In this document: positions 4,654 through 32,352 of the stretch, in pieces
Layout: every line of letters begins with the position of its first letter
How positions within the stretch are numbered: the first letter of the stretch is position 1
Virus record (IMG/VR): IMGVR_UViG_3300045998_000148
Coordinates: 1 to 64,000 of that record
Length of the DNA stretch: 64,000 bases
Strand: one strand, 5' to 3'
Source of the DNA: a virus
The notes under the pieces: generated by a model
Seen by the model: the letters and a program-made list of their open reading frames with translations, nothing else
Databases searched by the model: none
Told to the model about the DNA's origin: nothing
Translations under genes and position numbers: made by a program

Positions 4654-5454
4654 ATGCGAACATTACAAATCCGAAACTACATTATTCCCATCCACTTCGC
4701 CGACGAGTTGACCCTGACGAGGATGATGAACCTCCTCAACGAAATCGACGAGCTGACCCGCGAGGAAAAAAAAGGCAATCGGGAGCGCCGCAATCGATTT
4801 GCCCTAAACGACTTCTTCTGGCGGCTGACGGAATTGGTTCAGGTCGCCTCTCAGGGGCAGATCGATTCCCAATACGTCCAGTACCGCGAAATCGTGCATC
4901 CTGACGGCGGCATCGAGTGTGTCGGCAAGCAATTAGTCCTCTATACCGAAGAGATAGCCTACCTGATCTGGGAATTGAGCGCAGTCTATGTCGAAGACCT
5001 CTACAGGCGCAAGAAGGTACTGATCGAAAAAATAAAACAGGGCGTCCTGTCGCCGGAGGAAATCGCCCAAGTTAAAACCAACATCAAAAACTTGGAAGGT
5101 CAGATCGAGGTCATTCCCGAAACTATCGAGCGCAATACGAACTTCGTCATGCGGTACGTCCTGCTGCAAGAGGCGGGGGGAGTCTTCCATCGCGATGAAG
5201 ACACGCCAAAATACGCGGCAGGCCATAAAAACGGCAGGGCGGAAGGCAAGAAAAAAATCAAAAAGGGATTTGCCGCTTCCCTGCCGCCCGAACCCACTTT
5301 CAGCGAGGCGATCGCCCTGCCACGGGCTGCCGTTGCAAGACAAGTAGATAGCGGCGAAGAAGGCGAAGGCGAAGGCGAAGGCAATATCGACAACGGCGAA
5401 GGCAGCGACGACCTCGAACTACAAGAACTCAAGGCGATGGTGGACGAGCTTTAG
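4654..5454 (+). CDS. Hypothetical coiled-coil protein with acidic tail
   Basis: This 266-residue protein is mostly charged helix. Residues about 20-60 and 115-165 are coiled-coil-like (EEIAQVKTNIKNLEGQIE). A Lys/Arg-rich patch (KNGRAEGKKKIKKGF) follows, and the C-terminus holds an acidic Gly/Glu run (GEEGEGEGEGN). No enzyme motif is seen. It follows the 174-residue gene with a short gap and converges on the next gene with a 26-bp overlap. Scaffold-like or chaperone-like composition is the most that can be said. Confidence 0.6.
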   Translation: MRTLQIRNYIIPIHFADELTLTRMMNLLNEIDELTREEKKGNRERRNRFALNDFFWRLTELVQVASQGQIDSQYVQYREIVHPDGGIECVGKQLVLYTEEIAYLIWELSAVYVEDLYRRKKVLIEKIKQGVLSPEEIAQVKTNIKNLEGQIEVIPETIERNTNFVMRYVLLQEAGGVFHRDEDTPKYAAGHKNGRAEGKKKIKKGFAASLPPEPTFSEAIALPRAAVARQVDSGEEGEGEGEGNIDNGEGSDDLELQELKAMVDEL

Positions 5455-6025
5455 CATTTTTGGCGGCGATCGCCTTAAAAAATTCGATTTGACGCAGCCT
5501 CTTTTTCGCTTCTTCCTCCGTCCCGTACTTGCCGAGGAGCTTGCCCTTGCGCGAAAAAATAGCGTATTGCGAGCCGACCTTGCGGATCGAATCGCAGTGC
5601 GGCTCGGGGGAACCCCACAGCGCCAGACATCGGCGAAAATGCGCGTCTTTCGACGCCATTACTTCAATGGCACTGGCCTTGCTAGCATCGTTGCGGGCAT
5701 CGAGAATCGCCCGCCGATAGTCGTAGGTATCGGGGTTGGGCGGCATCCCCAATTCGGCGATCGCTTTGTTAAGGGCGATCGCCTGAACCGTCTCTTTTGC
5801 CGCTAAGCGGATCGGAGCGGATAGGAGTTCTTCGCGGACGTATCGAGCTGGCAGAGAACCCTCGGCAGGTTCGCCTTCAACAGTCCGATCGCGCCCGAGG
5901 CGATCGGCTGGGCTGTCGGCTGGGCTGTCGCCTGGGAAGTCATCGGGAAGGGCTGGACTGAAGGAATGAATTTTGCCCAGCATTGCATCGAAGGGATTGA
6001 GCTTGGGCGTAGGTTTGGCAGGCAT
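5429..6025 (-). CDS. Phage protein with C-terminal RLRQIEFFK motif
   Basis: This 198-residue protein is the last gene of the minus-strand operon that begins at 14003. The N-terminal half is low in complexity, with a DSPADSPAD repeat. The C-terminus has YAIFSRKGKLLGKYGTEEEA followed by KKRLRQIEFFK. Such 'self-description' tails (Y-x-V-x-S-x-x-G-x-x-L-G...RLRQIEFFK) recur in phage proteins near portal or head genes, from memory of the family; their role is unclear. I chose ATG 6025 rather than the in-frame TTG at 6037. The gene overlaps the upstream gene 6034-6723 only if the TTG is used. Confidence 0.6.
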   Translation of the reverse strand: MPAKPTPKLNPFDAMLGKIHSFSPALPDDFPGDSPADSPADRLGRDRTVEGEPAEGSLPARYVREELLSAPIRLAAKETVQAIALNKAIAELGMPPNPDTYDYRRAILDARNDASKASAIEVMASKDAHFRRCLALWGSPEPHCDSIRKVGSQYAIFSRKGKLLGKYGTEEEAKKRLRQIEFFKAIAAKNAKARPPSP

Positions 6026-6033
6026 CGCAATTC

Positions 6034-6723
6034 TCAACCAAATTCGTAATAGCCGCCGTTGACCATGCCGCTAACCCGCACGAATTTTGCGGCATCAAGG
6101 GCATCCGTCCTTTTCTTTCTGGTCTTAGAAGGAGGCGTCTTAGGAGCCTCGCCAGAAGCCGTTTCCCGTATCACGTCCGATAGTTTTTTGCGGCCTTTCT
6201 TTTTAGATTTAGTTTCGCCCTTTTTCGCTTTAGACGATTCGGCGGCGGCGGTCAGCAGTTTTCTGTCTCCTGGGTTATTTGCGCTAACATCGCTCATCAA
6301 TTGCTTCCAATCTTCGTCAGATAAGTTTTCGCCAACAAGATCGCTCATTAATTGCGGCAAATCTTTGGCAGACAATGTGTAATATTCTTGCGCTCCCTTT
6401 CCTTTGGGTTCCAAAAGTTCTCCCTCGACGGCCTCTACTTGATTTTTCTTTTTCTTGCCGCCGCCGCCAGAAGTCAGGGCGCGTCCCGCCCCATAGCCCG
6501 CCGCCCCTACCGCACCGCCAACCAGCGTGGCAGCCAGCACCTTTTTAGCCAGTCCGCCCTTTTTGCCGCCGCCGCCTTCGCCGCTGCCGCCACCCCCGCC
6601 GCTGCCTTTGGGAAGAGATCGGTAATAGCCGCCGCCCTTCATTCCAGGTACTTTGACAAAAATCTTGTTGCCGATAATGGCGTCTTCTCGAAATTGTATT
6701 TTGGATAATATGCTGGTTGCCAC
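6034..6723 (-). CDS. Tagged phage protein with GGGYYR module and hydrophobic helix
   Basis: This 229-residue protein begins with GTG behind a strong ribosome-binding site (AGGAGGTATATC). Residues about 13-40 hold the tag shared with three other proteins here (DAIIGNKIFVKV, then GGGYYRSLPKG). A Gly/Ser linker follows, then a Gly/Ala hydrophobic segment (VLAATLVGGAVGAAGYGAG, about 61-79). The C-terminal half is Lys-rich and ends in a half-tag, FVRVSGMVNGGYYEFG. There is no enzyme domain. It may be the smallest member of a set of co-targeted proteins; function is unknown. Confidence 0.65.
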   Translation of the reverse strand: MATSILSKIQFREDAIIGNKIFVKVPGMKGGGYYRSLPKGSGGGGGSGEGGGGKKGGLAKKVLAATLVGGAVGAAGYGAGRALTSGGGGKKKKNQVEAVEGELLEPKGKGAQEYYTLSAKDLPQLMSDLVGENLSDEDWKQLMSDVSANNPGDRKLLTAAAESSKAKKGETKSKKKGRKKLSDVIRETASGEAPKTPPSKTRKKRTDALDAAKFVRVSGMVNGGYYEFG

Positions 6724-6744
6724 GATATACCTCCTATAGGCATT

Positions 6745-7167
6745 TCAAGAATGGGAACGACTGGGTTTTTGCATCGCCATCGCCGTGAGGCCGTCGCCAA
6801 GGAAGGCGACCTCGATCGCCACGCGAGAAAGAACGACTCGTCGGCTTTTGATAGTAAAACAATAGCGGCGGCAATTCGAGCAGGTAATTTCGCCATACAC
6901 CAACGCGCTTTCTCGATCGCGTTGCACGGAATGAATTTTTTCAATCTCGATCCCTAAAAAATCGTCTTCAATAACTGCCCTGAGGTACTCTCGAACGAGG
7001 TCGTCCTGAATGTCACAGTCGGGATTGGCGAAAAAGGATAAGGGATCGCAGTTGGGACACGAGGCATCGCGATCGGCATCGCGATCGGCATCGCGATCGG
7101 CATCGCGATGGGGAAGGGAGGAAGGATGGGGGCGGTCAGAGGGCAACATATCGACTTTTTCGCGCAT
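6745..7167 (-). CDS. Hypothetical protein, paralogue of 7170-7487
   Basis: This 140-residue protein resembles the product of the gene just upstream: VIEDDFLGIEI and LVYGEITCSNCRRYCFTI align with VVEEDFVPLKV and IVYGELACTNQCRYFFSI. The N-terminal part has an (ADRD) repeat encoded by a 12-bp GCATCGCGATCG repeat and a CPNC pair; with CSNC downstream, four cysteines could bind a metal. Only two bases separate it from the upstream stop. The role is unknown. Confidence 0.6.
   Translation of the reverse strand: MREKVDMLPSDRPHPSSLPHRDADRDADRDADRDASCPNCDPLSFFANPDCDIQDDLVREYLRAVIEDDFLGIEIEKIHSVQRDRESALVYGEITCSNCRRYCFTIKSRRVVLSRVAIEVAFLGDGLTAMAMQKPSRSHS
7063..7109 (+). repeat. 12-bp HIP1-like tandem repeat
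   Basis: About four copies of GCATCGCGATCG lie in tandem inside the 140-residue gene and encode an Ala-Asp-Arg-Asp repeat. The unit resembles HIP1, and a multiple of three keeps the frame. Confidence 0.8.
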
Positions 7168-10400: not shown

Positions 10401-12505
10401 TCTTCTTGCGACTGCCAGAAATGTTGCACGCTGTTCTTGTTGACCAAATCGACGGCCTTCCGCGCTTCGGCAATTTTGGCCTGCAAGCCTGCATTGCGCT
10501 CGGACAGCACCCGACTTCGCTCGTCTAATTTCTGGATTCGGCGATCGAAGAAGGCAATTTTTTTATCGACCTGGCGCTCAGCACTTTTGCCAATGCGGGC
10601 GATCGCCCTCTCTTCTTGCTCGGTAGCGCGGGAAGCGGCAAGCAAGCGCTGGTTTTGATTGGTCGCAATGCCGCCCGTTATCATTCCCGCGACTCCAGTA
10701 CCCGACAGGGCGGGGATGGCGACAGGCAGTACACTATTGTCGAGAGCAGAACGGACGAACTCTTTTTCGCGGACGGAGGCGATCGCGCCTGGAGTAGACT
10801 GGACAATCGCGCCTGGAGCAGACTGGACAATCGCGCCTGGAGCAGACTGGACAATCGCGCCTGGAGTAGACTGGACAATCCCATTATTTCCCTCGGAACG
10901 CTTTCGAGTACGGGCAGCAGCAGCCAGCCCCGCGCCAGCAACTCCGGCAATGGCGGCGGCGGCAATTATTTTTGTTGCGGCAGAATTTCTCCTGCCCTGG
11001 TGCGCGTTCTCTGCGGACGTATCGAGCGACTTAGCCCCCTTCAGCCGCCTCGTCCTCGCGGAAGGCTTTTCGTCTTTTGCTTCTCCCGGCAGCGCTCGAT
11101 AGTAGTAGCCACCTCCCGCTTTCTTGACCTTCACTTTTCCGCCGATGACGGCATCGCGACGGTTGGCGATCGCGGAGGCGGAGGCACTTCTGTCTTGGCG
11201 CGCGTTCCCTTGGCGAGGAAGCCTCGCCGGGGTCGCACCGCTCTTGTCAGTACGACGGCTCAATTGCCGCGAACGAGACTGCGGAAATTTCCTCGACGAC
11301 TTATTCCGTCCGTTCGGCGAGGTAGGTTTTTCGGCGACGGGCACATTCATTTCGGGCAAGTTTTTTTCGAGGTGTTCGATTAACCTGCGGCTCGAACGGT
11401 AGTTGTCTTTAATGCTGGCTACCCCGACAGTGCGCCGCACGATATCGACTAAACCTCCCTTCTCCTGGCTGAGGTAATCGCCGTACAATCCGATTTGTTT
11501 GGGCGGAGGGTATTCGTCGGCAAGCTTCCGAAGCGTCCTGCCGTAGGTGACGAGCGCCTTCCTGCGATCGGCGGGCAACTGTTTGTAATCGATGCCTTTC
11601 CAGTTGCTTAAATTTTTATCGGCGAGGCTGGCGTTGGGAACGATCGACATCTTGTGATCGACGCCGACGCCCATATCGATCCCCCAAAAAGAATCGCTTT
11701 TTTCGTCGTAGAAAATATTTCCGCGTCCTCGATCCCAATTGCCCGTAAACGTATCGAGGGCAGCTATTTTAGGCAAGTCTTCGTGTTTTGCCAGTGTCTT
11801 TAAATGTCCCGGCGTCAGTCCCTTAAAGCGATGGGCGATGTCGAGATCTTTAAATCGATGGCCGCTTTCTAGAGAGTCTACGGGCTTGCCGGGAACTAAT
11901 TCGTGGAGGGTAGCGCCAAACGGCCCTTGTTTGAGGGGGTGCTTCAACGCTGCCGGAACCATCTGCGTCGAATTGACCTTGATGCCCAGCGATCGCCCCA
12001 TCTGCGCGGAGAGTGCATCTGCACTCGCTTGCATATAAGAAATCGGCAGCTTGACTTGCTTGAAAATGTAGGGACGATCCTCTTCGTCCTTTACAAAATA
12101 ACTGTTGCCCGTCACGCCCGCCGTTATCTTTGGCTTGCTCTTGTCTAGCGTTATCTTGTCTAACTTTTCCTGCGAGATGACGTTTAGTGGCGTCTTGCCG
12201 CTATTTCGGTACGTCTCCTGCACCTTGTCAAGGACACCATAAACAGCGGCGGCAGCGATCGCACCCCTTACCGCAGCAAGGGCGACGGCGGATTTTACGG
12301 GAAGGCGAGAATCCCCGCCCGTCGCGGATTTGACCGACTCTCCCGCAGGGCGTTTCTTGCGGCTAGATTCTCGCCTGCCCTTTCCCGGCAGCGCTCGGTA
12401 ATAGTAGCCGCCGCTCGGTTTCTTGACCCTGACCCTTCCGCCGACAATGGCATCGAGGCGTCTGCTCTCTTGGTGCGCTTTTAGACTAAGAAGGTTTGTC
12501 TGCAT
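7487..12505 (-). CDS. Giant tagged polyvalent protein with HipA/PI3K-like kinase domain
   Basis: This 1672-residue protein carries two copies of the tag (about 18-41 and 450-473; core GGGYYYRALPG). Each is followed by a basic linker and a hydrophobic Ala/Gly segment (about 71-91 and 509-531). Residues about 105-350 resemble the HipA/PI3K-like kinase fold: a lysine strand (PYIFKQVK), a catalytic-loop-like GNWDRGRGN (255-263) and a metal-binding-like GIDMG (275-279). Downstream are four 8-residue repeats (IVQSTPGA), long coiled coils, and Gly/Ala-rich hydrophobic stretches near the C-terminus. It is translationally coupled to its neighbours. Phage polyvalent proteins of this kind can be injected with DNA, which is a family-based inference. 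Kinase activity is unproven. Confidence 0.7.
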   Translation of the reverse strand: MQTNLLSLKAHQESRRLDAIVGGRVRVKKPSGGYYYRALPGKGRRESSRKKRPAGESVKSATGGDSRLPVKSAVALAAVRGAIAAAAVYGVLDKVQETYRNSGKTPLNVISQEKLDKITLDKSKPKITAGVTGNSYFVKDEEDRPYIFKQVKLPISYMQASADALSAQMGRSLGIKVNSTQMVPAALKHPLKQGPFGATLHELVPGKPVDSLESGHRFKDLDIAHRFKGLTPGHLKTLAKHEDLPKIAALDTFTGNWDRGRGNIFYDEKSDSFWGIDMGVGVDHKMSIVPNASLADKNLSNWKGIDYKQLPADRRKALVTYGRTLRKLADEYPPPKQIGLYGDYLSQEKGGLVDIVRRTVGVASIKDNYRSSRRLIEHLEKNLPEMNVPVAEKPTSPNGRNKSSRKFPQSRSRQLSRRTDKSGATPARLPRQGNARQDRSASASAIANRRDAVIGGKVKVKKAGGGYYYRALPGEAKDEKPSARTRRLKGAKSLDTSAENAHQGRRNSAATKIIAAAAIAGVAGAGLAAAARTRKRSEGNNGIVQSTPGAIVQSAPGAIVQSAPGAIVQSTPGAIASVREKEFVRSALDNSVLPVAIPALSGTGVAGMITGGIATNQNQRLLAASRATEQEERAIARIGKSAERQVDKKIAFFDRRIQKLDERSRVLSERNAGLQAKIAEARKAVDLVNKNSVQHFWQSQEEMSAEAGRQQVRVKALDQWTRESAMLERQLDAIEGVRQKTIASRDRLSGTEKKQARQAGTVAADRTRQSGTSDSPAGVPQERSRKLRQSETAEDMSIYEAVEKQFGEFRREVEEIRTSNSMSPFEKEMQTYKVFEKRFPEEAQSLKLLEVMKAAVSPTQNPRGADLTKYAGIVDFLNLNATKTYSPDSLGNYVNYMTLGSKFEPNQISSVEEYRDYLKRIQKASKQPVVRLANRMRKNYANHYIRQGDRIEVANAKAKTVMETIFADTRQHLADFEAEIERRLAAIDEGKYVYLNGNIYERSKGDSKRGKRKQRRSDAVLGVTTGGDREWLKEEGAKIVRRLVDRIVSINNTYPVLPKGEIAYPLHERSNQAEVERVLAGVSSGHFLLGIGEIRKKMNEALRQIARGESPLLNEVKIAIAYHQSKESTYYRLWAKAIRDVALERSANPKVDVLPKLKAKLDRSLAQVLDDRQFNRLLPMANKALARKITSARGFNVRADRMGKPPASRQSAPGGGGKSTALKDDPDLVAKEVVVKGKDGKTYRSVRYVNPNPEEDGGTPEKVADFVADRVKDRVKEEVLKTVREEALKKVKDEAVAAVREADRPISVGNVEVVGTEAVRKKAREALSETSQSAIERGAKVVGGGDERTEKAARQLAQALSPVVEMPDGTLRVKRKRDVFRDVLGATVERYREGLRQQDEIIIEQKKEGAQREAIVRNKLLTSMKAVYDTTKELIDEGNAREELARKAASQVGTQVPSRLELVEEGAAALGGIYGAKWGAIGGLPGALAGDIMGTRTIRRGFADAKATKAAYDKLKLEPVFQQAGRLEKLELLRQEAIAELERRDVAAAEQVKKQDIGGWVVGNASAQLAEHTIPLPTPGIGAVVAMATTNDVVSVYDRYKSGEIDATAAAKEVGKIYAELPKKAVRTARQVKAGLETTLGIQKTVTAEASRTLDVLNAQNTGKIRKIQQAS
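10792..10880 (+). repeat. 24-bp tandem repeat, four copies
   Basis: Four near-identical 24-bp units (GCGCCTGGAGTAGACTGGAC plus ATC and one base) encode IVQSTPGA/IVQSAPGA repeats in the giant protein, just after its second hydrophobic segment. Confidence 0.85.
11194..11246. repeat. Single 51-bp palindromic repeat copy
   Basis: One copy of the 51-bp family (GGCGAGGAAGCCTCGCC core, flanked by GCGCGTTCCC and GGGGTCGCACC) lies in frame in the giant gene and encodes ATPARLPRQGNAR, directly before the second tag copy. A half-copy (CTCTTGGTGCGCTTTT, about 12468-12483) lies in frame before the first tag. Confidence 0.75.
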
Positions 12506-14003
12506 ATTTTTTGATTTTTTTGGGATCTAGCGTCATAGCTGCGAAAAAGTGCATCAAATAATCTTTGATTAAAAAGATGCGGATTTCGTCTGACATCGTG
12601 CCGTCAAATTGTTTGGCAATCGCGATCGCCAGCGCGTCTGCTTCTTCGGGATGTTTTAATCCTAATTGAGAAAAGAGACTTGCAAATTCCTGGCTTTCAT
12701 AGAAGCGGCGGACGATCTCGCTCGGCATTTGCGCCATCCCTTTCCCTGCCAATGGGCTGCGAGGGGGATTGCGAGGGGAACCTCCGGCCAGGACATCGGC
12801 GGCATCTTTCCTGCCTATTTTTTCGCGACTCCTCCGTTTAAATGTCACGAACTCGTTTATTCTCTGTCGCTGCTGCGCCCGCTTGTTTTTTCTCTGCTGC
12901 TGCCGCTCTCGCTCCATCTGTTCGCGGCGTTTTACGAGATTGGTCACATATTGCTTCTCGCCCGTATAGGGATTGGGAATTTCTTCCCACAAATCGCGCT
13001 TGCGGTTAATAGAGTCTTGCTTGTTCAGGAAGTCGGTAATTTGTGAGGCTGTCAGTTTCTCTTTATTGCGGGCGTAGTCGGAAAAGCCGTAAAAGCCAAA
13101 GTTGAGCTTTTCGCCCGACTTTGCCTTTTCTATTTGCTTCTCCCACTCCGGGCGCGTCCTTATTTTGAGGATGTTGTGGGTGACGGTATCGCCGACAAAG
13201 CGAGTTAGAGGCGAAACTTTAAATGCCTGAGAGGAGTAAGCGTCTCCTTCGACGATCGCTCGGGCAAAAGATTCGCAGTTGGAGCTGAAGCCCTTGTAGG
13301 TGAAGTCGCTGTAGAGCATTTGATGGGCGCGTTTTACTCGTTCTTCGCGGGGGATGTAGCGACTTTTTTGGGTCTGGTACATCTCCTCTTCTGGCACTTT
13401 TTCGTATTCGCTATCGTTCATGCGGGCGTCGGGCAGTATCCAAGTCAGCCCTCGAATGTTGATAAACGGGGTGTGGTCGCGAGTTTTCCAGTTTTCGCCG
13501 GAATCGATCATCATGTGTTCTTTGGTTATCGGATCTTTGCCGACATAAACCGCATAGTGTTGGGCATCGCCCAGCGTCGGCGACTTGATATTTTTGCGGA
13601 TCAAGTCTCCCGGCTCGAAGGTATCGTACTTGGCGAGAGTAAGCGCGTCGGGAATGCCGTCAGGCGGCTGGCGGATAGAAGCAAAGTCCGTGGGCAACTT
13701 TTCTTTGATGTCTTTGTAGACGCCGTGGGCAGCTCCCAATACCGCAAAGCCGATTACTGCCTTCAGCGGGGTTTTGAGGCCGATCGCCTTCATCTCCCTT
13801 ATTACTTCGCCGGAGCCGTCGATCAGCGCGGCCTGCGATCGGCTCAGCCCTTGGTATAAATTAGCCTTCGCCTGCACAGGTCTTCGGCCAACTCCCTTCT
13901 CCTTCTCGCGCCCCTCCCCCGGCAGCGCCCGATAGTAATAGCCGCCTCCGGCCTTTTTTACCCTGACCTTGTTGCCGACAACAGCATCTATCCTGAATGC
14001 CAT
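12486..14003 (-). CDS. Tagged protein with LRAT/NlpC-P60-like domain
   Basis: This 505-residue protein is the first gene of the minus operon; its ATG is preceded by AAGGAAT. Residues 5-29 are the tag (DAVVGNKVRVKKAGGG then YYYRALPGE), and residues about 80-96 form a hydrophobic helix. Residues about 128-265 match the lecithin-retinol-acyltransferase branch of the NlpC/P60 papain-like fold: PGDLIR, HYAVYVG with His149, and SNCESFA with Cys243, the expected catalytic pair. Relatives act as acyltransferases, thiol hydrolases or phospholipases. The C-terminal half is charged helix. The stop overlaps the next gene by 20 bp. The domain call is fairly firm; the substrate is unknown. Confidence 0.75.
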   Translation of the reverse strand: MAFRIDAVVGNKVRVKKAGGGYYYRALPGEGREKEKGVGRRPVQAKANLYQGLSRSQAALIDGSGEVIREMKAIGLKTPLKAVIGFAVLGAAHGVYKDIKEKLPTDFASIRQPPDGIPDALTLAKYDTFEPGDLIRKNIKSPTLGDAQHYAVYVGKDPITKEHMMIDSGENWKTRDHTPFINIRGLTWILPDARMNDSEYEKVPEEEMYQTQKSRYIPREERVKRAHQMLYSDFTYKGFSSNCESFARAIVEGDAYSSQAFKVSPLTRFVGDTVTHNILKIRTRPEWEKQIEKAKSGEKLNFGFYGFSDYARNKEKLTASQITDFLNKQDSINRKRDLWEEIPNPYTGEKQYVTNLVKRREQMERERQQQRKNKRAQQRQRINEFVTFKRRSREKIGRKDAADVLAGGSPRNPPRSPLAGKGMAQMPSEIVRRFYESQEFASLFSQLGLKHPEEADALAIAIAKQFDGTMSDEIRIFLIKDYLMHFFAAMTLDPKKIKKYADKPS

Positions 14004-14739: not shown

Positions 14740-14882
14740 TTTTTGAAGACCAGGCGGAAGGGGGTTCCCCGACCGTCAGAACAACCTTGTCGGAGGCGGA
14801 CGGCTGCCTCTGCTAAATCCCGAGTCGGTTTGCCTCGACTTACATCCACGTTTGAAAACAAAACTTAATATAGGAATCCCCC

Positions 14883-22056: not shown

Positions 22057-25000
22057 TTAAAGTATCGCCGTCTTGGACAAATTGAGGGCCGTGTCTAATA
22101 TTTGAGAGAGGTTATCGGTAGGTCTGGCCGCTACGGAGCCGCGATCGCCTCGAATTGTCACCTTTGTATCTTTTTTTGCTACGGTCGCCTGTTTTAGGGC
22201 GTCCGTGAGGGCTTTCATGCTGGTATTGAGAGTATTGATATTGCGGTTGAGAGTTTCCTGTGGGCTGACCGTGGGGACGGTCGAGGGCACGCCAGCTCCG
22301 AATTGAGGCAATCCCGCAGGCCGCTTGACCTTTAATAAGTTTACCCCTTCTTGGATCGGGACGGGAGCGGTCGCTTCTGCCTGTAGTCGGGAACCAATGC
22401 CCGAGTAAAGAGGCCCATAGAGATTCCTGGCCTCGCGTTCTTTCTTGCGGACAACTCCTTCAAAGAGGCGCGGATTGTAGATGCGGCTCAAGTCCTCCAG
22501 CTCGGGTGCAATTTCGAGCAGGCCGCGATCGATGCGGCGAGGGGCGGCAGGACTTGGAGCTGGAGCGGGCGGAGCGGAAGGCGGCGGCTGTCCGGGTCGG
22601 AAAGAGACGATATCGTTAGCGCCCGTCCTGCCCGACAGGATATTAGCCTGGGTCTGGGCGACGAGCTGACGCCCTGCCGAGCGCAAGCCTCCCGTTCCGG
22701 CAAAGCCCAATTGAGCGGCAGCCCGATCGCCGAGCTGTTGAAAGAACTTGCGCTGCTGGTACTTGCTGGGCAGCGCTTCGCCAAATTGCACTTGAGCGCC
22801 CAGCCGCCCTGCCTGCTGGTTGATTAGAGTCTGCTGTCGTTTCTGGCCGAGGATTTGTGCCTGGGCGTCAAAACTCTGCTCGTCGAGGACGGCTCGCTGC
22901 CGGACGAGATCGATCTTTTGCGTCTGAGCGTCCACCTTCTGAGTGAGCGCCCCGATCAGGGCGGCATTGGCCGCTTTCTGCGGGTCGGCAAGGGCGGTAG
23001 CGAGTTCCGATTGCGCGTCGATCAGCCCCGACCGAGCCTCTATTTCCGCTACCTGATTGGCGATTTTCTGTTTCTCGCGGGCGATCTCAAGGGATTTTTC
23101 CTCTAATTTCAAATTTTCAAGCTGAGCCGCGTATTCCGTCTCCAGGGCATCGAGCTTGATCGCAGCAATCGTGGCGGCCAATTCCTTGCGCTCTCGTTCG
23201 GTGCGAGCGCCCTTGTCGAGGACGCCAAACTGCGCTTCGAGGAGCGATACCTGAGCCTTAAACGTCTCCAGAATGGCATTGGCGACGTCTTGCGTATTTT
23301 TAACCTTGGCCGTCTGCACGTCGTAGAGCGCCAGAATTTTTTCGAGTTCCGCCCTCGTCGCCTCGATATTGGTCTGGGCGATTTGCCGATCGCGGGCGAT
23401 AACGGCTTGGGCGGCCTGTATTTTATGGGTCGTCTCCAATTCCGCTTTTTTCAGCTCGTTTACCTGGATCTGCCGTTCCAGGGCGCGAACTTCAGCATCG
23501 TTTTGGGGGGCGATCGCGTTAGCTTGCAGGTAGCGAATGCGCTCGGCGAGCAATGCCCGAGTCTTTTCGAGTTCGACGTCGATCTGCGCCGTCGCGACCT
23601 TCCCTTTCTCTTTGATGGCGGTAATTTCATCTACCTTGCCGCGCACTACCGCCAGACTGAGCGCCTGTTCCTGCAATTTAATGTCTTCTAACTGGTCGCC
23701 GTACTTCTTCGAGATCGCCTCGTTAATGGCCTCCAGCGCCTTCTGTCGCTGTTCGGGTTCGACGTTGAGGGCAACCGATACCTCGCGCATTTTCTCGATA
23801 AATTCATCGCCACTAGCGATGCCCACGGCAAAGGCTTTTTGATAGTCCTGAATCAGGCGGTCGATTGTCGCCTTAAAGCCGCCCGACTGGGACTCCTCTC
23901 CCTTGGCAAAAGTCTCGTCGATGCTTTTTAGCTGCGTGCGGAGCTTGTCGCCCGCCTTGCCAATTTCGGCGGCCAGTTGGTTGCGCTGGATCGTACCCGT
24001 CGCCTGTTCTTTTAACTTGTCGTTCTCTTCGGAGAGGGCGTTGTTTTCCTCTTGAAGGGCTTCTCTCTGGGTATCGGTCAGGCCGAACAGGGAAGAAAGC
24101 CCGCGCTTGCTGCCCGCTACCTTCTTCTGCGCCTCTACATACTTGGTAAACTCATCGGTTGCCGCAATCCGCAAATTTATTTCGCGGCGCAATTCGCTTA
24201 CCTTCTGCCCCTGTTCCCTCGATTCTACGAGCCGTCCGTCCCGGTAGAGAGTATTGTACTTTTCCTGTTCGGCGGAAAGCTGCACGAGCAGCCGCGCCGT
24301 CTTGTCGCCATAAGCCCCCGTTTTAGGCGCGGAGACGGCCAAGATCGATGCGTTGCGCGTTTTTTCAAGGGCTTCTATTTCGGCAGCGAGGCTGTCGTAT
24401 TCCTTGGAATTGGGGGCGGCATCCACCAATTTCTTTCGCAGTTCGCCGAGCTGGTCGGTAACGCCGATCGCCTGCTGCACCTTGGGCGTCAGGTCGGCGA
24501 TGTCGCCGCCGCTTTTTTCAAAAGCCTGCCGTTCCTTCCGCAGTGCGTTAGCTGCGGCCAGGGTATCGATGGAGCTGGTAAATGCCTTTTCAGACTTATT
24601 GCCGCCGAGCAGTTCCTTGTTCTGAGCGATCAGGATTTCGTTAAATTCGATCTGTGCCTGTGCCTGGGATAGTTTCTGGCGGTTGCGCTTTAGCTCCTCC
24701 TCGGAAAGGGCAATCCCACTTTCGAGTTGTTTGGACTGCGCCTCATTTAACTTCTCGACCTCCTCGCGCAATTTTTGAGTCCGTATTTGCTGGATGTCGA
24801 GCTGGTAGCTGATATCCTCGAAGACCTGAGTATTGACCGATTCGCGTACTCGGCTGTAGATTGCCGCCGCCGCCGCGATCGCCCCCATTATCAGCAGGAG
24901 CGGGCCGAATGCCGCCCATAGTTGGGAGACGGCCAATTTCAAGCTGCCCAGGACGGGGAGCAAGCCGGAGAATGCCCCGGCGAGCTGGGTCTGCTTGAGG

Positions 25001-28000
25001 GCGGCAAAGCGGAGTTGCAGTGCGCCCGACTGGATGCCCAATGCCTTAAAGCTGTTGTCCAACAGCAGGGTACTGACAGCGGCTACCTTCTGCGTCAATC
25101 CGAGGCTGGCAATGCCGATGCTCAATCGATTAAAGGCAAGTGCCGTCTGACCGCAAATAATACCGACGAGCTTCACCGCTTCGCCGTAGAAAGCGGCGAT
25201 CGCCCCAGATATTGACATCTTCTGCGCCGAGGCCGCCGTCGCATCGCCGAGAGCTGCCGAACTCGCCACCGCCGCCGCCTGTTTCTGACGGAACAGGTTG
25301 AGCGTACCGATGTATTTCTGCATATCTTCGGCCAAGAGGCTGAACGCCGCCCGCACGTTTGCGAGACTCGCGCCACTCAAGCCGAAGATACCGATCAGCA
25401 AGCGAAGCGCCGCTGCTACCCGACTCGTCACGCCCGTCAGCCCCGTCAGTATGGCCGTGCTGACAAAAGCGCTGCGGTTAAAGGCGATGAGGCCGACCGA
25501 CAGTATGGCGAGTGCGCTATTGACCGCGCCAAAACTCTTCAGCGCGTCGATAAGGACGTCCACTGCCGACTTGACGATAGAGAGGAGGTTGCCCAACACC
25601 GCGCCAATCGAGTTAAATGTCTCGACAAGGGACTCGTTGCCCAGGATGACCTCGTTAATGATGCGGGCGGCGAGGTAGAGAGCAGATCCCCAGAAGGCAA
25701 TGCTGATGGCCTGAGAAGCGAGTGTTTCCCCGACCTGGCGCAATATCTTGTTAAACGTCTCTGTCAGCAGCCCTACTGTCGTCATTTGCGCCTTGCTTGC
25801 CCCGAGCTGACTCGCCATATTGGAGGCAGAAGCAGCGATCGCGTTCATCCCCGCTCCCAGGATGGGGACTTGGGCGATAAACTTGTTGCTCGCAATCGCG
25901 TTAAAGGCAGCGCCAATCGCGCCTAAATTGCGGGCGGGACTGGCCTGCAAGATCGACTCGAAGCCCGCCCGCAGCGGCGGGAACAGGTTGATAAGAGCTA
26001 TCCCCTGCACGGAAAGGGAGGCGACGGTAGGAATCAGCCCAGTCAACATGGCGGAGAATGGGCCTGCTATGGGCAGGAGAGACTTCTGCACGGCGGCAGC
26101 CAGTCCGGGTATTGCCTGCAAGTTCTGACCGAGCGTGAGGAAGCCAGCGCCGCCTCGCTGGAGCTGGGGGAATAAGGTCGCAAACGTCGCGAACATCCGG
26201 TTTGCCCCCAATTCCGTAGCGAACAGCAGTTCGCCGACGATGGGCAGCGATATGGCAATGGATCTAAAGGAAGTGGCGAGCAATTGAATTCCCTTTTGCA
26301 AGACAATCGCCTTGACCGCCACCCCCAAAAAGCCGCCGCCGACAGCGCGAACGAAGCCGACGAGCCGACCCATGAAATCGACAAAGGGCTGCAAGATCTC
26401 GACGGTAGCGTTAATGCCATCGGCGATCGCGCTTAGGAAATTGCCGAAGCTCTTGGCGAGGTAAGCCGGGATGCTGCTCGAAACGGGCAGGAGAGAGGCA
26501 AACGCATTTTTGATGGCATCGAACAAGTCGAGGACGCCCGAAAAAATAGCCGTGGAAACCTCGGTGAGGCCGCCGACAATTTGTTTTTTGACGAGCCGAA
26601 CCAAATTGCCCGTCTTGCCGATCGAGAACTCGGTCAATCCGTCGAAGACCTCGCCCAACCGAGCGACAATCGGCTCGATCAGGCCGCGCCCAGCGGCGAG
26701 CGCTGCCGTCTCAATCGTCTCGACAATATTGCTGTACTGGCCGCCGATGCTCTGCGCTGCCAATTTGTTCGCCTCTTTAAATCCGGCGAGGCGCTTGGTC
26801 AGTTCGGCAACCCCCGTATTCTGCGCCTTCCACTTGGCGATCATTTCGTTGGAAATGTTAAGAGTTTTGGCGAGTACGCTATTCTGGTCGATCGTACCCG
26901 TCAAGATACTGCCTATTTCCTGCCGCGCTTGGAAAAGCGGCAACCCGATCGCGCCCAGCGCTGCCGTAAAATCAACGGTCAGTGCCGCCGACTCGCGCAA
27001 GCCGCCGCCAATCGAGGAAATGCTGTTGTTGACGACCTGGAAGACCTCGACCAATTGGGAGGAGGTGACGCCGACTAACTCCAGCGACTCTTCCCGGATC
27101 TGTTGCAGCGCACTTCGCACGGGGCTAGCCAGAGCGGAGACGGCATTAATGCTTGTCAGGGCAATAGCATCGCCCTGACTGTTGGCACTGGTAACGAGCG
27201 AATTAAAAGTGCGCGTCGTCGAGGCGATCGCCGACTGGGTGGCGAGGAGCTGTTGGTTGAGTTCTTCGTTTTGACCGATCAGCAATCGAATCGGCCCTGT
27301 ACTGACAATCTGCTGGATGGTGGCAAATCCGCTGCTGATAAAGAAGATCTGCTGTCCCACGTTAGCCAGCACGTTAGAAGCCGCGCCGAGGCCGCCCATG
27401 ATGCCTTGAAATACGTCGAGCGGTTCGGACAGCCCCGCCATATATCCGGCTGTTTGGGAAATAAAGCTCAAGGGGGCAATAAACTTGCCTGGTAAACTCT
27501 CGATCGTGCCGAGGGTGTCGATGATTGCCGACTCAATGCGATCTAAAAGGGGCGTCATCTGTTGGAACAGCCGATCGCCAAAACCCTGCACGAATGAATC
27601 CCGCGCCCTCTCGCCCAACTCGTTCATCGACGAACTGAGCAATCCGCCGAGCCGATCGTCGATTGCCGTAAACTGTCCTTCCAGAAGGGTACTCGCCCGT
27701 CCCATCGCCTGAATTATTCGATCGCCGATATCGTCTGGGATCAAATCCTTTATTCTCTGCAAGAAGGCATTGTTCGCCCCAAACTTCTCTACCACTTGAC
27801 GGACGGCATTGCCGACCTGATTGAAAGCACTTGCGAACTTCTGCGAAAACCCCCTGACGTCGAGGCCAAAAATGCCTTCAAACGTCTTGGCTAACGCCTC
27901 CAGGGGTTGCGTGCCACTCAAAAACTCATCCCTTGCCGCCTGCAACTTCGCGATCTCGGCGCGAACCTGACCCAGCAAGGCAATGTCTTCATCCACCACG

Positions 28001-29964
28001 CCCGTCGCGCCGCCTCGAACGACCGGAACCGTATTAATATTGCGGGCAATATCTTGTTGTAATTGCCGCTCCCTTTTTTTTAAAAAGTCGATGGCCTCTA
28101 CATTGATGTTTAGCCGCTCTTGCAGCCTTTCCTTTTCGGCTCTGATGCTTTCGCCGTCACCCTTGCCGCCCTCGGGCAACTTTTCAAGTTGGGCGAGCCG
28201 ATCCTTTATCCGCCCTTCATTGGTCAGAAAAGCCTCGGGAATTAAAATATCGTTGACGCCCGCGACGACTTTCTTAAACCCCCCAGTCCAAGACTCTTTC
28301 AGTTGGTCGAAGGGGAGGAACTGCCTGAAGTTGTTATAAATCAACTGTCCGACAGCAGGCAGTCGAGAAACAAACTGCCCCTCTAATGCGTCAATAGCGC
28401 GAGAGGGCACGCTCTCAAACTGGGTTTCGAGGGATGCCGACAGGTCGATTAATTGATTGGCAATCTGGTTTTTTATGAAATTGACGGGAAGCAAGTCTGC
28501 ACTCGCGAACTGAGAGCGCAAGCCGGACTGCAATCCGGTTGCAATACTGCCTCCCACCTGTTCGCGCAACAATACATCTATGTTTTCCCGGCCTTCACGC
28601 GGCTTATAGCGTTCGATGCGCTGCAATGCCCTGCGCGGGTCGAGGACGGCGGCAAGGCGATCGCCCATCAGGTTGCGGGGAAGCAGGGCAATGGCAAGCT
28701 GATTGGCGAGGTCGGGCTGTCCGACAAAATTAATAAGCCCGCCCGCAAATAACTTCCCTGCCTGATAGCCTTTTTCCGTGACGGCAGCACTGGCTTTATT
28801 GAACAGGCTTTCATAACCTGCCTGCAAGAGGGAAATGCTCGCACTAGAGGCCAACTGCGATGCCGTTTTCGAGAGCGCAGCTCTAATGGGTTCATTGATA
28901 TTGGCGATCTGGCCGCCGAGTCCTTCCCCCTTTCGCGCTTCGGCAATTAAAGTTTTTAAAGCTCCCGATTCTACCAGTGCAATCCGACTGGCATCTGTCA
29001 GTTGACTGGCAATCACCTTTTCCAAGGCCGTTCCCGACAACTCGCGATCGAGGACGGAAAGCAATTCGCTCGATGTCTTTTTAGCAAAATTGGCCAACTT
29101 TTCCGATCCAAATGCCTTTGTCGCCGCAGAGACTAATTTTTCGCCTTGCCTGTCTATAAAAGCAGTGGGATCGGGAAAGATATTGGCGATAATCGCTTTT
29201 TGACGGGCTACAAAATTAGACGCCCCAGACACATCGAGCGCCTGCTGGTATTTCAGCCGCGCATCGGCGAGCAACTTCTGACGCTGTTCAATTTGGCCTT
29301 GAAGTCGTCGGTTTTCCTCTTCTAAAGGAGATTTGCCCTCCTGCGGGCGATCGCGATTGCGTTTCTGCGCGATTTCAAAATCAATTTGCGTCCTATTCCT
29401 GCTGCCTCCCCCTGCGATTAAATCGTCGAGAGTGCCGCGCCTTGCCACTTGCCGATTGAGGGCAATGCGAGCCTGCAAATTTGCGATAGAAGATTCAATT
29501 TTCTGTACCGCCCTCTGAGCCTTAAAAACTTCCGGCTCGACGGGAGCTAGATTGCGCTTTATCTCGCCACTAAAGCCCTTAAAAATTTCGCGGCTGATGC
29601 CAAACGTCTCGCGCAAGCCAGCACTCAGCTTGCCCGTATCGCGCAGGAATTTGGTTTGTGCCAACTCGTTGAGGGTGGCGAGGACGGTCGTTCCTCCTAC
29701 GTCTGTCTGCAAGACGGAAACCATTTCTCGGAGGGCGGAGGTGGTCGTCCTAACCCCGAGTAGCGTCGTACTCGCCCCAATCGACGTAATGTTGCGCGAC
29801 AGGGAGATCGCCTCGCTCGATACCGACGCAACCGCCTTCGTCAGGGCTTCAACACCCTTGGTAACGAGGCGAACGCCAGGAGTAGCGCCATCTTTTGTCT
29901 CCAGTCGAATCTCGATTGGATTGTTGCGAAAACTGCCTGCCCTTGCCCGCCCGCCCGTTGCCAT
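22057..29964 (-). CDS. Tail tape measure protein
   Basis: At 2635 residues this is the largest gene. It has the tape-measure pattern: an N-terminal assembly region, long coiled coils (for example AEIARLQAARDEF and much of 1650-2400), several hydrophobic Ala/Gly/Leu-rich segments in the middle (about 870-1700, such as GPLLLIMGAIAAAAAIYS) and a variable Pro-rich C-terminal region (PPPSAPPAPAPSPAAPRRID). It sets tail length and is ejected with DNA. From the usual rule of about 0.15 nm per residue, the tail should be near 400 nm. No lytic domain was recognised. It follows the tagged hydrolase-like gene by 12 bases. Confidence 0.9.
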   Translation of the reverse strand: MATGGRARAGSFRNNPIEIRLETKDGATPGVRLVTKGVEALTKAVASVSSEAISLSRNITSIGASTTLLGVRTTTSALREMVSVLQTDVGGTTVLATLNELAQTKFLRDTGKLSAGLRETFGISREIFKGFSGEIKRNLAPVEPEVFKAQRAVQKIESSIANLQARIALNRQVARRGTLDDLIAGGGSRNRTQIDFEIAQKRNRDRPQEGKSPLEEENRRLQGQIEQRQKLLADARLKYQQALDVSGASNFVARQKAIIANIFPDPTAFIDRQGEKLVSAATKAFGSEKLANFAKKTSSELLSVLDRELSGTALEKVIASQLTDASRIALVESGALKTLIAEARKGEGLGGQIANINEPIRAALSKTASQLASSASISLLQAGYESLFNKASAAVTEKGYQAGKLFAGGLINFVGQPDLANQLAIALLPRNLMGDRLAAVLDPRRALQRIERYKPREGRENIDVLLREQVGGSIATGLQSGLRSQFASADLLPVNFIKNQIANQLIDLSASLETQFESVPSRAIDALEGQFVSRLPAVGQLIYNNFRQFLPFDQLKESWTGGFKKVVAGVNDILIPEAFLTNEGRIKDRLAQLEKLPEGGKGDGESIRAEKERLQERLNINVEAIDFLKKRERQLQQDIARNINTVPVVRGGATGVVDEDIALLGQVRAEIAKLQAARDEFLSGTQPLEALAKTFEGIFGLDVRGFSQKFASAFNQVGNAVRQVVEKFGANNAFLQRIKDLIPDDIGDRIIQAMGRASTLLEGQFTAIDDRLGGLLSSSMNELGERARDSFVQGFGDRLFQQMTPLLDRIESAIIDTLGTIESLPGKFIAPLSFISQTAGYMAGLSEPLDVFQGIMGGLGAASNVLANVGQQIFFISSGFATIQQIVSTGPIRLLIGQNEELNQQLLATQSAIASTTRTFNSLVTSANSQGDAIALTSINAVSALASPVRSALQQIREESLELVGVTSSQLVEVFQVVNNSISSIGGGLRESAALTVDFTAALGAIGLPLFQARQEIGSILTGTIDQNSVLAKTLNISNEMIAKWKAQNTGVAELTKRLAGFKEANKLAAQSIGGQYSNIVETIETAALAAGRGLIEPIVARLGEVFDGLTEFSIGKTGNLVRLVKKQIVGGLTEVSTAIFSGVLDLFDAIKNAFASLLPVSSSIPAYLAKSFGNFLSAIADGINATVEILQPFVDFMGRLVGFVRAVGGGFLGVAVKAIVLQKGIQLLATSFRSIAISLPIVGELLFATELGANRMFATFATLFPQLQRGGAGFLTLGQNLQAIPGLAAAVQKSLLPIAGPFSAMLTGLIPTVASLSVQGIALINLFPPLRAGFESILQASPARNLGAIGAAFNAIASNKFIAQVPILGAGMNAIAASASNMASQLGASKAQMTTVGLLTETFNKILRQVGETLASQAISIAFWGSALYLAARIINEVILGNESLVETFNSIGAVLGNLLSIVKSAVDVLIDALKSFGAVNSALAILSVGLIAFNRSAFVSTAILTGLTGVTSRVAAALRLLIGIFGLSGASLANVRAAFSLLAEDMQKYIGTLNLFRQKQAAAVASSAALGDATAASAQKMSISGAIAAFYGEAVKLVGIICGQTALAFNRLSIGIASLGLTQKVAAVSTLLLDNSFKALGIQSGALQLRFAALKQTQLAGAFSGLLPVLGSLKLAVSQLWAAFGPLLLIMGAIAAAAAIYSRVRESVNTQVFEDISYQLDIQQIRTQKLREEVEKLNEAQSKQLESGIALSEEELKRNRQKLSQAQAQIEFNEILIAQNKELLGGNKSEKAFTSSIDTLAAANALRKERQAFEKSGGDIADLTPKVQQAIGVTDQLGELRKKLVDAAPNSKEYDSLAAEIEALEKTRNASILAVSAPKTGAYGDKTARLLVQLSAEQEKYNTLYRDGRLVESREQGQKVSELRREINLRIAATDEFTKYVEAQKKVAGSKRGLSSLFGLTDTQREALQEENNALSEENDKLKEQATGTIQRNQLAAEIGKAGDKLRTQLKSIDETFAKGEESQSGGFKATIDRLIQDYQKAFAVGIASGDEFIEKMREVSVALNVEPEQRQKALEAINEAISKKYGDQLEDIKLQEQALSLAVVRGKVDEITAIKEKGKVATAQIDVELEKTRALLAERIRYLQANAIAPQNDAEVRALERQIQVNELKKAELETTHKIQAAQAVIARDRQIAQTNIEATRAELEKILALYDVQTAKVKNTQDVANAILETFKAQVSLLEAQFGVLDKGARTERERKELAATIAAIKLDALETEYAAQLENLKLEEKSLEIAREKQKIANQVAEIEARSGLIDAQSELATALADPQKAANAALIGALTQKVDAQTQKIDLVRQRAVLDEQSFDAQAQILGQKRQQTLINQQAGRLGAQVQFGEALPSKYQQRKFFQQLGDRAAAQLGFAGTGGLRSAGRQLVAQTQANILSGRTGANDIVSFRPGQPPPSAPPAPAPSPAAPRRIDRGLLEIAPELEDLSRIYNPRLFEGVVRKKEREARNLYGPLYSGIGSRLQAEATAPVPIQEGVNLLKVKRPAGLPQFGAGVPSTVPTVSPQETLNRNINTLNTSMKALTDALKQATVAKKDTKVTIRGDRGSVAARPTDNLSQILDTALNLSKTAIL

Positions 29965-29976
29965 TGAGGAAGCCGC

Positions 29977-32352
29977 CTATCTGTAGAGTTTGCGAAGGTA
30001 ATTCAATACATCGGCATTCGCCATGTACGATCGGGTCGCATCGCCGACGCCATCGATCTCGTGAGCGCCCGTCTTCTGAGGAAAGACGCCGAAGCGATCG
30101 TTTGCGCCGATGAGCGACAGTTCCGCAAGTGGCGTCCCCGCTTCCGCCATGCCGAAAGTAGGCGTCGAGATCGTCGCGAGCCGAAATTGCTCCATGATCT
30201 TCTGTGCCTTGGGTACGCCGTGGGTCTTGACGAGGGATTGATAGAGGATGTCGTAGGACACCCGTGCCTTAATTCCGGCATCTTTAGAGGCGAGCATCGC
30301 AATACGGCGGTTCGGCCTCGATTCGATATTGTCGGAAAGGGCAAACAGGTTGGCCGCCAGTCGAATAGATTCGGGATCGACGGGTTCGGTATCGACGGCA
30401 CTCAGTCCCAAATTGCGGCGAATGGCAGCGCCAAACCCGTCAATCGAGATGTGCTTGAAACGCTCGTCCTTGCTAAATGCACTCGCTCCAAAGGGGGCGT
30501 CCGCTTCTTTAATGCCGAATTCGGAGGCGACGGAAAAAAACTTAGTCATCCCGCCTGCTAAATTGCCGCTCTTACTCGTCCTGCCCTTGAGCCGATCGCC
30601 TTCGGGAATGCCGTCGAGCAAGTCTTCGTCTTTCTCCCAAGTACCGCCCATCAAAAAAGTGAGGTTGTTCTGCTTTTCCTTCTTTATCGCGTCGAGCTTG
30701 GGCTTGTTCAGCTTGGCGGCCTCGGCGAGGGCGAGGTCTGCCGCATTTTTGACATTCTCCTGGTATTTCTTGTTGGCAGCGGCGTATTCCTTGGGGCTGA
30801 GTCCCGTTACCGTACTGCCCGCAAAGAGGCGGTAGCTGGCCTTGTCGCCGAGAGCCATTTCTTTTAACTGCCCGACGCGATCGAGGAACGTATTGAGCGA
30901 GGGGTTGTAGCGTTCGGTAGCCTCATCCAACTGCTTTTGCAGCGCATTGCTGCGGTTGGAGATGCGGCTGGAATAGTAATTTAAGCCCTCGCGCAACTTG
31001 TCGCGCACGTCTCGATTTTTGAGGTAATCTTCGGCCTCGCCGCCCATTACCGATGCGATCCACTGCGGCTTTCGTTTCGGCATCCAGCTAGCCGGATCTT
31101 TGGCGCTCGTAACGGTGCGGTCGTTGACGTTGCGCCAGATACTCGGCGTATCGGCCACGCCAAAGGTAGGACTGCCCAACCGCACGAGGTTGATGCGCTC
31201 GGTAATGCTGAGGCCGCCCGACGCGCTGCGATCGGCTTTTTTCATCCGCCCCAGTATCTCGATCGCCTCGTTGGAGATGTTGCCGCCGACGCCGTGGGCG
31301 ACGATATTTAAGGGCTTGTCGGGATAGCGGTTGCCATAGGCGTAGAGCTGCGCGGCCAGGTCGATAGCCGCATCGCTGCGACCCCGCACGATATTGTTCG
31401 TGATGTAGCCTTTAATCCGATTGTTTATCTGGTGCGCCAGGTGGAAGGGGTTGGGCTTGCCGTTGAGCCACTTAGCATTATGGGGAGAAAGGTCGGAATC
31501 CTCGTCCGGGTTTTTAAAAGCAACGACGTGATTGCGCTCGCCGAACCAATTTTCTTCTTCCGAATTGTCCGTATTTTGCAGCAGCATCTCCCGCAACCGA
31601 TCGCCTTTAGAATTCTGAGAGCCGCCGCCGCCAACGGCAAACAAGATATTTTCCTTGCTCGTCGTATCGACCTGCATTTGCTTGGCTCTTGTCAGGGCGA
31701 TGTCGGCAGACTCCTTGAAGCCGTCGCGATGTCGCGACTTGGCCTGCTCGTACTTGGCGGCAGTAAAGCCGATAATGCCCGCCGCCAACAGGATACCCGC
31801 TCGCTTGGGATTGGCAGAGACGATCTTCTGCAACTTAATTGCCAGCCGCAGATCTTTTGCCGCTCCCTTGGGCAGCGAACTCAAGACGGCAGTGCGTTCC
31901 TTGCGGCGGCGCTCTAAAGTCTTTCTAAAATTGCGCTCCTCTTCGGGATTGCTTTCGACTAATTTAATCTGCCGAATTAACTGATCTTTGGTAAGGTGAT
32001 TGGCGCGATAAATTTGTTTTCGCGAGGCGATCGACTGCAACTCGCGGATCGAACGGTCTTCGAGCTTGCTGCCGCCCGCCTTCACGCCTTCGGGCAGCTT
32101 GCGCCAGTAACCGCCGCCCTTTACGCTCGGATCTCTAACGTACACTTTATCGCCGCGCCGCAAAGCCGGACGGCTATCTTGGTGCGCGTTCCCTAGCGCC
32201 GTGCGACGGCGCGGGGTCGCACCGCTATCTTGGTGCGCGTTCCCTAGCGCCGTGCGACGGCGCGGGGTCGCACCGCTATCTTGGTGCGCCGCCGAGGGTT
32301 TCTGGGCAGTTGAGGGCTTTAGACTTGCTTGCATTGGCGCGATCGTGAACAT
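29977..32352 (-). CDS. Tagged protein with two alpha/beta-hydrolase-like lobes
   Basis: This 791-residue protein begins with in-frame 51-bp repeats (residues 22-58), then the tag (about 65-90: RRGDKVYVRDPSVKGGGYWR), a Rho-N/SAP-like helical motif (100-130) and a hydrophobic segment (PKRAGILLAAGIIGFTAA, 182-199). Residues 235-440 and 562-790 are two related lobes. Each has FxxGG near its start and a later P-T-F-G motif (LGSPTFG, ISTPTFG) followed by NDR. Lobe 1 has AHGVGG (352-357) where lipases have GHSxGG, so the nucleophile Ser appears absent; lobe 2 has LASKDAG. It lies directly upstream of the tape measure. A virion or effector role is inferred. Confidence 0.62.
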   Translation of the reverse strand: MFTIAPMQASLKPSTAQKPSAAHQDSGATPRRRTALGNAHQDSGATPRRRTALGNAHQDSRPALRRGDKVYVRDPSVKGGGYWRKLPEGVKAGGSKLEDRSIRELQSIASRKQIYRANHLTKDQLIRQIKLVESNPEEERNFRKTLERRRKERTAVLSSLPKGAAKDLRLAIKLQKIVSANPKRAGILLAAGIIGFTAAKYEQAKSRHRDGFKESADIALTRAKQMQVDTTSKENILFAVGGGGSQNSKGDRLREMLLQNTDNSEEENWFGERNHVVAFKNPDEDSDLSPHNAKWLNGKPNPFHLAHQINNRIKGYITNNIVRGRSDAAIDLAAQLYAYGNRYPDKPLNIVAHGVGGNISNEAIEILGRMKKADRSASGGLSITERINLVRLGSPTFGVADTPSIWRNVNDRTVTSAKDPASWMPKRKPQWIASVMGGEAEDYLKNRDVRDKLREGLNYYSSRISNRSNALQKQLDEATERYNPSLNTFLDRVGQLKEMALGDKASYRLFAGSTVTGLSPKEYAAANKKYQENVKNAADLALAEAAKLNKPKLDAIKKEKQNNLTFLMGGTWEKDEDLLDGIPEGDRLKGRTSKSGNLAGGMTKFFSVASEFGIKEADAPFGASAFSKDERFKHISIDGFGAAIRRNLGLSAVDTEPVDPESIRLAANLFALSDNIESRPNRRIAMLASKDAGIKARVSYDILYQSLVKTHGVPKAQKIMEQFRLATISTPTFGMAEAGTPLAELSLIGANDRFGVFPQKTGAHEIDGVGDATRSYMANADVLNYLRKLYR
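32179..32290. repeat. 51-bp repeat array (2-plus copies)
   Basis: GGTGCGCGTTCCC recurs at 32181, 32232 and 32283, an exact 51-bp period. The core here is AGCGCCGTGCGACGGCGC, a variant of the GGCGAGG core seen elsewhere. The array encodes the N-terminal AHQDSGATPRRRTALGN repeats of the tagged hydrolase-like protein. Confidence 0.9.

Follow-up and report, generated by a model that had tools for sequence, protein, structure and literature searches.

The first 64,000 bases (hereafter the window) of the 99,877-base IMG/VR virus record IMGVR_UViG_3300045998_000148 encode four proteins that carry copies of a short peptide, which we call the Gly-Tyr tag. We consider it likely that this tag is a two-part signal on effector proteins that are packed into the prohead, trimmed by the head-maturation protease and injected. 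The first part, [RK]-x-D followed by A, S or K, would be where the phage's DUF2213 head-maturation protease cuts; within that prohead the enzyme would also process itself, the scaffold and the capsid protein. The second part, KVxVKKxGGGYYYRALPG, would remain on the new N terminus or between modules, and most likely is a cargo loading or retention signal, the functional counterpart of a four-cysteine tag (the CG tag, CKxGxxCGxxCIPKxxxC) found on homologous cargo of related cyanophages. The protease would split polyproteins into modules, and the trimmed LRAT-type enzyme, HipA-like kinase and hydrolase-like module would leave the head along with the DNA and act on the host, with a hydrophobic segment perhaps aiding membrane passage. 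Prohead cargo is the simplest description of the tagged proteins, since it is within the prohead that the head protease works, and the cargo carries its predicted site.

The first-pass annotation had read a shared motif once each in the proteins encoded at 6034-6723, 12486-14003 and 29977-32352 and twice in a giant protein encoded at 7487-12505, and profile searches recovered all five copies. When each copy in turn was excluded from the model and 5,400 open reading frames (ORFs) of this virus and its relatives were searched, E values were 2.6e-13 for the copy in 12486-14003, 8.6e-11 and 3.6e-10 for copies 2 and 1 of the giant protein, 7.8e-10 for the N-terminal copy in 6034-6723 and 0.0047 for the copy in 29977-32352; the top non-tag match in these searches had E of about 0.6-3. 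These results confirm the Gly-Tyr tag as real, with five copies in four proteins. A sixth, shortened copy closes the 6034-6723 protein (residues 205-229), and since it scores well only if the model contains it (E = 11 otherwise), it is a probable rather than a proven tag. A weaker copy that had been suspected near residue 1240 of the giant protein was found by no profile, and the remaining 36 kb of the 99.9-kb record held no further copy. All six tags begin with R-x-D, the next residue being A in five and K in one (RGD-K).

It had also been claimed that a hydrophobic segment follows every copy. This is so for four of the five main copies, which have one within 90 residues (best 19-residue hydropathy 1.40-2.11). 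In the 29977-32352 protein, the segment is weaker and lies approximately 100 residues downstream of the tag, where it aligns with the hydrophobic segment of homologues. That such segments insert into a membrane is a guess.

From its enrichment in the protease, its position at the capsid core and the mature N terminus of a coliphage capsid protein, R-x-D/A (the slash marks the putative cut) is most likely the head protease site. The window DUF2213 protein is a convincing head-maturation protease (Pfam E = 2e-23, 83.7 bits against a cut-off of 22; PHROG head maturation protease E = 2e-47) in which the EHP, SxGY and NHxA residues are intact, and it is encoded next to the capsid gene, as expected of a member of the family. 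Counted from the annotated gene start, this protease/scaffold contains 10 R-x-D-[AS] sites where composition predicts 0.64 (8 versus 0.59 with a shorter gene start), and [RK]-x-D-[AS] is enriched 13-fold. Other head and cargo genes of the phage contain 10 sites (2.9 expected), and all its remaining genes are at chance level (15; 17.3 expected). The same split between gene classes is seen in PaV-LD and CL131, the cyanophages that are the closest named relatives (terminase 44% and 40% identical, respectively). As the head-and-cargo class contains the tag sites themselves, the counts for protease, capsid and portal are the unbiased part of this comparison. At the start of the conserved major capsid core, R-x-D-[AS] is aligned in all five phages compared, and R-x-D immediately precedes six of the six Gly-Tyr tags, where 1.1 would be expected for [RK]-x-D at random positions.

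DUF2213 relatives occur in about 1,600 phage records, and [RK]-x-D-[AS] is enriched in the DUF2213 proteins of TLS (9 versus 0.80 expected, P = 2e-7), tunus, phiEt88, S-CBS4 and Rogue1. For coliphage TLS, whose DUF2213-family protease aligns with that of the window, the mature capsid protein was shown by Edman degradation to begin ASDMGIW (PMC11447400). The TLS capsid gene reads GAKND/ASDMGIW, placing the mature start directly after K-N-D. The same capsid position reads KGD/A in tunus and KAD/A in Rogue1, and the mature Rogue1 capsid protein begins with Ala (PMC11447400).

Several observations count against this scheme of cleavage and delivery. A cut after R-x-D in the cyanophages is extrapolated from TLS, a coliphage only distantly related to them. 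That 45 residues are removed, as the authors of the TLS study estimated from band size and alignment (PMC11447400), disagrees with their own Edman result; we based the TLS cleavage point on the reported N-terminal sequence, not on that estimate. In the Nostoc linckia protease, the site is weakly represented (one R-x-D-[AS], 0.3 expected), and many CG tags are preceded by R-x-D-K or V/F-x-D instead of R-x-D-A. In the hydrolase-like module of the 29977-32352 protein, the nucleophile position, usually Ser, is Gly (AHGVGG), making its activity doubtful, and the module may be inactive. Finally, the first R-x-D ends at residue 6 in the 12486-14003 protein, 14 in the 6034-6723 protein, 18 in the giant protein and 68 in the 29977-32352 protein, so that in three of the four any removed leader would be very short. 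With little to remove from these three proteins, R-x-D-A could instead be an uncut docking motif that joins cargo, scaffold and capsid protein in the prohead, the tag being purely a packaging signal. We consider docking unlikely, given that the TLS capsid protein is cut exactly after K-N-D (PMC11447400) and that the scaffold half of the protease has the site repeatedly, a pattern better suited to scaffold degradation.

Cleavage by the head protease at the start of a loading tag also agrees with what is found in related cyanophages. We counted 61 CG tags in PaV-LD, CL131, three Nostoc prophages and five further virus records. [RK]-x-D lies within approximately 22 residues upstream of 53 of them (10.2 +/- 2.9 expected), and a hydrophobic segment follows 29 of the 61, compared with 14% of random positions. 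The window virus has no credible four-cysteine CKxGxxCGxxC tag, and a comparison of the Gly-Tyr and CG profiles gave an alignment over R-x-D-A only, with no further homology. On this comparison, R-x-D-A is separable from the Gly-Tyr part of the tag.

The cargo behind the two tags is shared. A homologue of the HipA-like kinase module of the giant protein follows a CG tag both in a Nostoc linckia prophage (37.6% identical, E = 7e-52) and in virus L051 (38% identical), and hydrolase modules homologous to that of the 29977-32352 protein (E = 1e-36 to 4e-54) lie behind CG tags in CL131, the Nostoc prophages and four further virus records. CL131 gp048, the homologue of the 29977-32352 protein, is without a Gly-Tyr tag and carries repeated CG tags with a module after each. 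Because the same kinase-like and hydrolase modules follow either tag, both with [RK]-x-D ahead, the Gly-Tyr and CG tags are, as judged from these alignments, interchangeable. The homologous cargo of the related phages lies in the head/tail gene block.

Could the tag be a mere linker or recombination seam, a short coding repeat that shuffles cargo domains and whose peptide has no role? Tags do lie between modules, the same cargo is found behind differing tags, and this genome has much repetitive coding DNA. We nevertheless regard a seam as highly improbable, as the tag is conserved at the protein level among proteins that otherwise cannot be aligned, and as relatives have a nonhomologous tag at the same position, nearly always with [RK]-x-D upstream. 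Position and function have therefore been kept, and sequence has not.

The cargo domains look like effectors, as far as their sequence relationships indicate. The LRAT/NlpC-type domain of the 12486-14003 protein matches Pfam LRAT (E = 2.1e-7, 31.7 bits against a cut-off of 24.3) and keeps the Cys (NCESF) and His (QHYAVYVG) residues of a cysteine enzyme. The giant protein consists, in order, of a tag, a hydrophobic segment, the HipA-like kinase module, the second tag, another hydrophobic segment and a coiled-coil/helical region; the kinase-like module is the only one recognized, and the rest are unknown regions. K, D, N and D positions of the kinase module are invariant among homologues, and the L051 homologue matches Pfam HipA_2 with E = 4e-4, below the curated cut-off. 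An AlphaFold model of this module was poor (predicted local distance difference test [pLDDT] 47) and was not used. A Gly/Ala-rich similarity (E = 2e-4) between the C termini of the giant protein and the CL131 portal-MuF protein was not reproduced in other relatives and is not relied on. Homologues of the hydrolase module of the 29977-32352 protein match DUF676 and lipase families. A model of the module (pLDDT 68) retrieved lipases and cutinases with Foldseek at probabilities up to 0.99-1.0, with no E value below 0.001, and this predicted resemblance is supportive only.

CG-tagged proteins of PaV-LD include ORF079 (L007:3749-5524), which has ADP-ribosyltransferase-like repeats (Pfam ART, 2.4e-5) and recalls the head-packaged T4 Alt protein, and ORF085 (L007:9123-10205), annotated as a "minor virion protein," which has a similar-looking repeat by eye.

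The first-pass annotation had taken the tag plus the helix after it for a targeting or processing signal, perhaps one through which a set of effectors is packaged into the virion. A protease site at the tag start, effector-like cargo, and homologues in the head/tail block behind another tag all favor that idea; what it had not seen is that R-x-D-A can be separated from the rest of the tag and that relatives use a different one. In the window (29977-32352), as in CL131, the Nostoc prophages and L051, cargo genes lie directly before the tape measure gene, and hydrophobic segments follow four of five tags, as might be expected if the tag were a tail or ejection-channel signal and the tagged proteins shared the tail lumen with the tape measure protein, reaching the host membrane via the tail. 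Such a route seems rather improbable. The sites occur in capsid, scaffold and portal/MuF proteins as well. Of the four tagged window genes, three are 8-16 kb away from the tape measure gene, past plus-strand replication genes, and the tagged proteins of PaV-LD match a "minor head protein" family, a match that is likely to reflect their own membership in it.

Loading into the head has precedents. The T4 internal proteins (IPI-III, Alt) have capsid targeting sequences (CTS) that are processed by the gp21 prohead protease (PMC5694885). In a manner resembling the role proposed for the Gly-Tyr tag, the T4 CTS is a short N-terminal segment that is common to unrelated effectors, ends at the prohead protease site and directs head packaging for ejection. 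However, Glu is the residue after which T4-type proteases cut (A-x-E in SPN3US and an analogous site in T4), whereas the window phage has R-x-D and a DUF2213 protease. The CTS lies before the cut site, as a propeptide of 10-20 residues, whereas the distinctive part of the Gly-Tyr tag lies after it, with R-x-D ending at residue 6, 14 or 18, close to or inside the T4 range, or at residue 68. Moreover, window tags are also internal, dividing a polyprotein into modules. In MuF polymorphic toxins and head-packaged MuF fusions, effector domains are predicted to be head loaded and injected (PMC5576092, PMC5512222, PMC9503650), but there MuF is fused at the N terminus, whereas no tagged protein of the window has a MuF match and MuF is a separate gene. 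The window system would work like T4 CTS and MuF effectors and, having a different site and protease and no MuF domain, is a member of neither by the tests made.

Polyvalent proteins of phages and plasmids are likewise large multidomain effectors encoded beside virion genes (PMC5512222). Their defining domains were not found in the tagged proteins. A polyvalent protein joins at least two effector domains, catalytic or binding; the giant protein has one recognized kinase-like module plus unknown regions. Unlike that of polyvalent proteins, its modularity stems from repeated tags with protease sites. Another parallel is the CG-tagged cargo of CL131, PaV-LD and the Nostoc prophages, which combines R-x-D, a tag, often a hydrophobic segment and an effector-like module in the same genome block, and differs in having the four-cysteine tag in place of the Gly-Tyr tag. 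The tagged proteins are best called a variant of head-packaged, protease-processed phage cargo.

Among the collections searched, the Gly-Tyr tag is known from one virus only. It matches no Pfam or NCBIfam domain, and full-length scans of three tagged proteins gave no PHROG match (for the giant protein, the PHROG scan covered the kinase module only). Tag-alignment searches of viral contigs and of genome contigs confirmed no copy elsewhere, a degenerate DNA pattern of the tag had one match in viral contigs, judged to be chance, and scans of viral contigs with three of the tagged proteins singly found no relatives. A search of 386 cyanobacterial genomes gave three matches with E = 0.005-0.01, roughly as many as chance would give. 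Among 25 related virus records, none had the Gly-Tyr tag and 13 had CG tags.

The minus-strand late genes, which include the terminase, protease, capsid, tape measure and MuF-type genes, are listed with the tagged genes below.

Features of the window discussed in the text (a slash in a tag marks the predicted cut)
Feature	Position	Strand	Basis or remarks
Tagged cargo, 505 residues, LRAT/NlpC-type domain (residues 130-254)	12486..14003	-	Pfam LRAT
Tag copy in 12486-14003	13917..13994	-	RID/AVVGNKVRVKKAGGGYYYRALPG, residues 4-29
Giant tagged cargo, 1672 residues	7487..12505	-	Sequence, homology, profile, hydropathy
Giant protein, tag copy 1	12383..12460	-	RLD/AIVGGRVRVKKPSGGYYYRALPG, residues 16-41
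HipA-like kinase module of giant protein, residues 100-395	11321..12208	-	Homology to CG-tagged modules
Giant protein, tag copy 2	11084..11161	-	RRD/AVIGGKVKVKKAGGGYYYRALPG, residues 449-474
Tagged protein, 229 residues, Gly-rich linker, one hydrophobic segment, no known domain	6034..6723	-	
Tag copy in 6034-6723	6610..6690	-	RED/AIIGNKIFVKVPGMKGGGYYRSLP, residues 12-38
Probable shortened tag, C terminus of 6034-6723	6037..6111	-	RTD/ALDAAKFVRVSGMVNGGYYEFG, residues 205-229
Tagged cargo, 791 residues, alpha/beta-hydrolase-like module(s)	29977..32352	-	Homologous to CG-tagged CL131 gp048
Tag copy in 29977-32352	32092..32157	-	RGD/KVYVRDPSVKGGGYWRKLP, residues 66-87
MuF-type minor head protein	21118..21834	-	Pfam Phage_Mu_F E = 4.5e-9; separate from cargo
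Tape measure protein	22057..29964	-	Homology to PaV-LD and CL131 tape measures; 29977-32352 is directly upstream
Major capsid protein	34670..35866	-	Core begins GRLD/S; four relatives have R-x-D-A at this point of the alignment
DUF2213 head-maturation protease with C-terminal scaffold	36853..38610	-	Pfam, PHROG, site count
Terminase	52094-53920	-	Late gene

Some neighboring features can be added. Two small proteins that look alike by eye (6745-7167 and 7170-7487) are encoded between the tagged genes 6034-6723 and 7487-12505 and might serve the cargo as chaperones or immunity proteins. The gene at 5429-6037, which adjoins a tagged gene, has a C-terminal YAIFSRKGKLLGKYGTEEEAKKRLRQIEFFK motif and weak matches (E = 0.0012 and 0.007) to PHROG families whose function is unknown. 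Between the left tagged genes and the structural block, the plus strand encodes a Mu Gam-like end-protection protein and a DnaG-type primase (14110-16862). The late block has two differing endolysin-like genes (41403-42416 and 50871-52082), the second with an additional C-terminal endolysin/peptidase-like domain. Tandem repeats of 51 bases (32888-33041 and 43472-43644) lie within several unrelated genes and have a GATPARLPRQGNAHQDG-like translation; related peptides occur at 32190-32274, at the N terminus of the tagged 29977-32352 protein, and at 11206-11239, just ahead of tag copy 2 of the giant protein. Beyond the window, at 70451-73334 of the record (L004 6451-9334), many tandem copies of a 13-base repeat, CAGATCGCCGCTA, extend over approximately 3 kb. 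In a Nostoc linckia z4 prophage (G001:C29 107638-109773), the MuF domain is split in frame, at a conserved point, by approximately 365 extra residues, possibly an intein.

If our interpretation of the Gly-Tyr tag is correct, it would provide a sequence rule for predicting head-packed, injected phage proteins, a task that, T4 and the MuF fusions apart, is difficult from sequence for most phages. It would also give a cutting specificity, [RK]-x-D/[AS], to the very common DUF2213 family, from one published N-terminal sequence and strong site enrichment, and would reveal a set of cyanophage effectors (a kinase, an LRAT-type cysteine enzyme, a lipase-like protein and the ADP-ribosyltransferase-like protein of PaV-LD) that could take over photosynthetic hosts. 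We give even chances to the broader idea that DUF2213 phages share a general cargo system, in which swappable tags behind [RK]-x-D sites load effector polyproteins, the head protease splits them, and tags evolve and are exchanged independently of the cargo. If so, scanning for R-x-D plus a tag would uncover hidden injected effectors across many phages.

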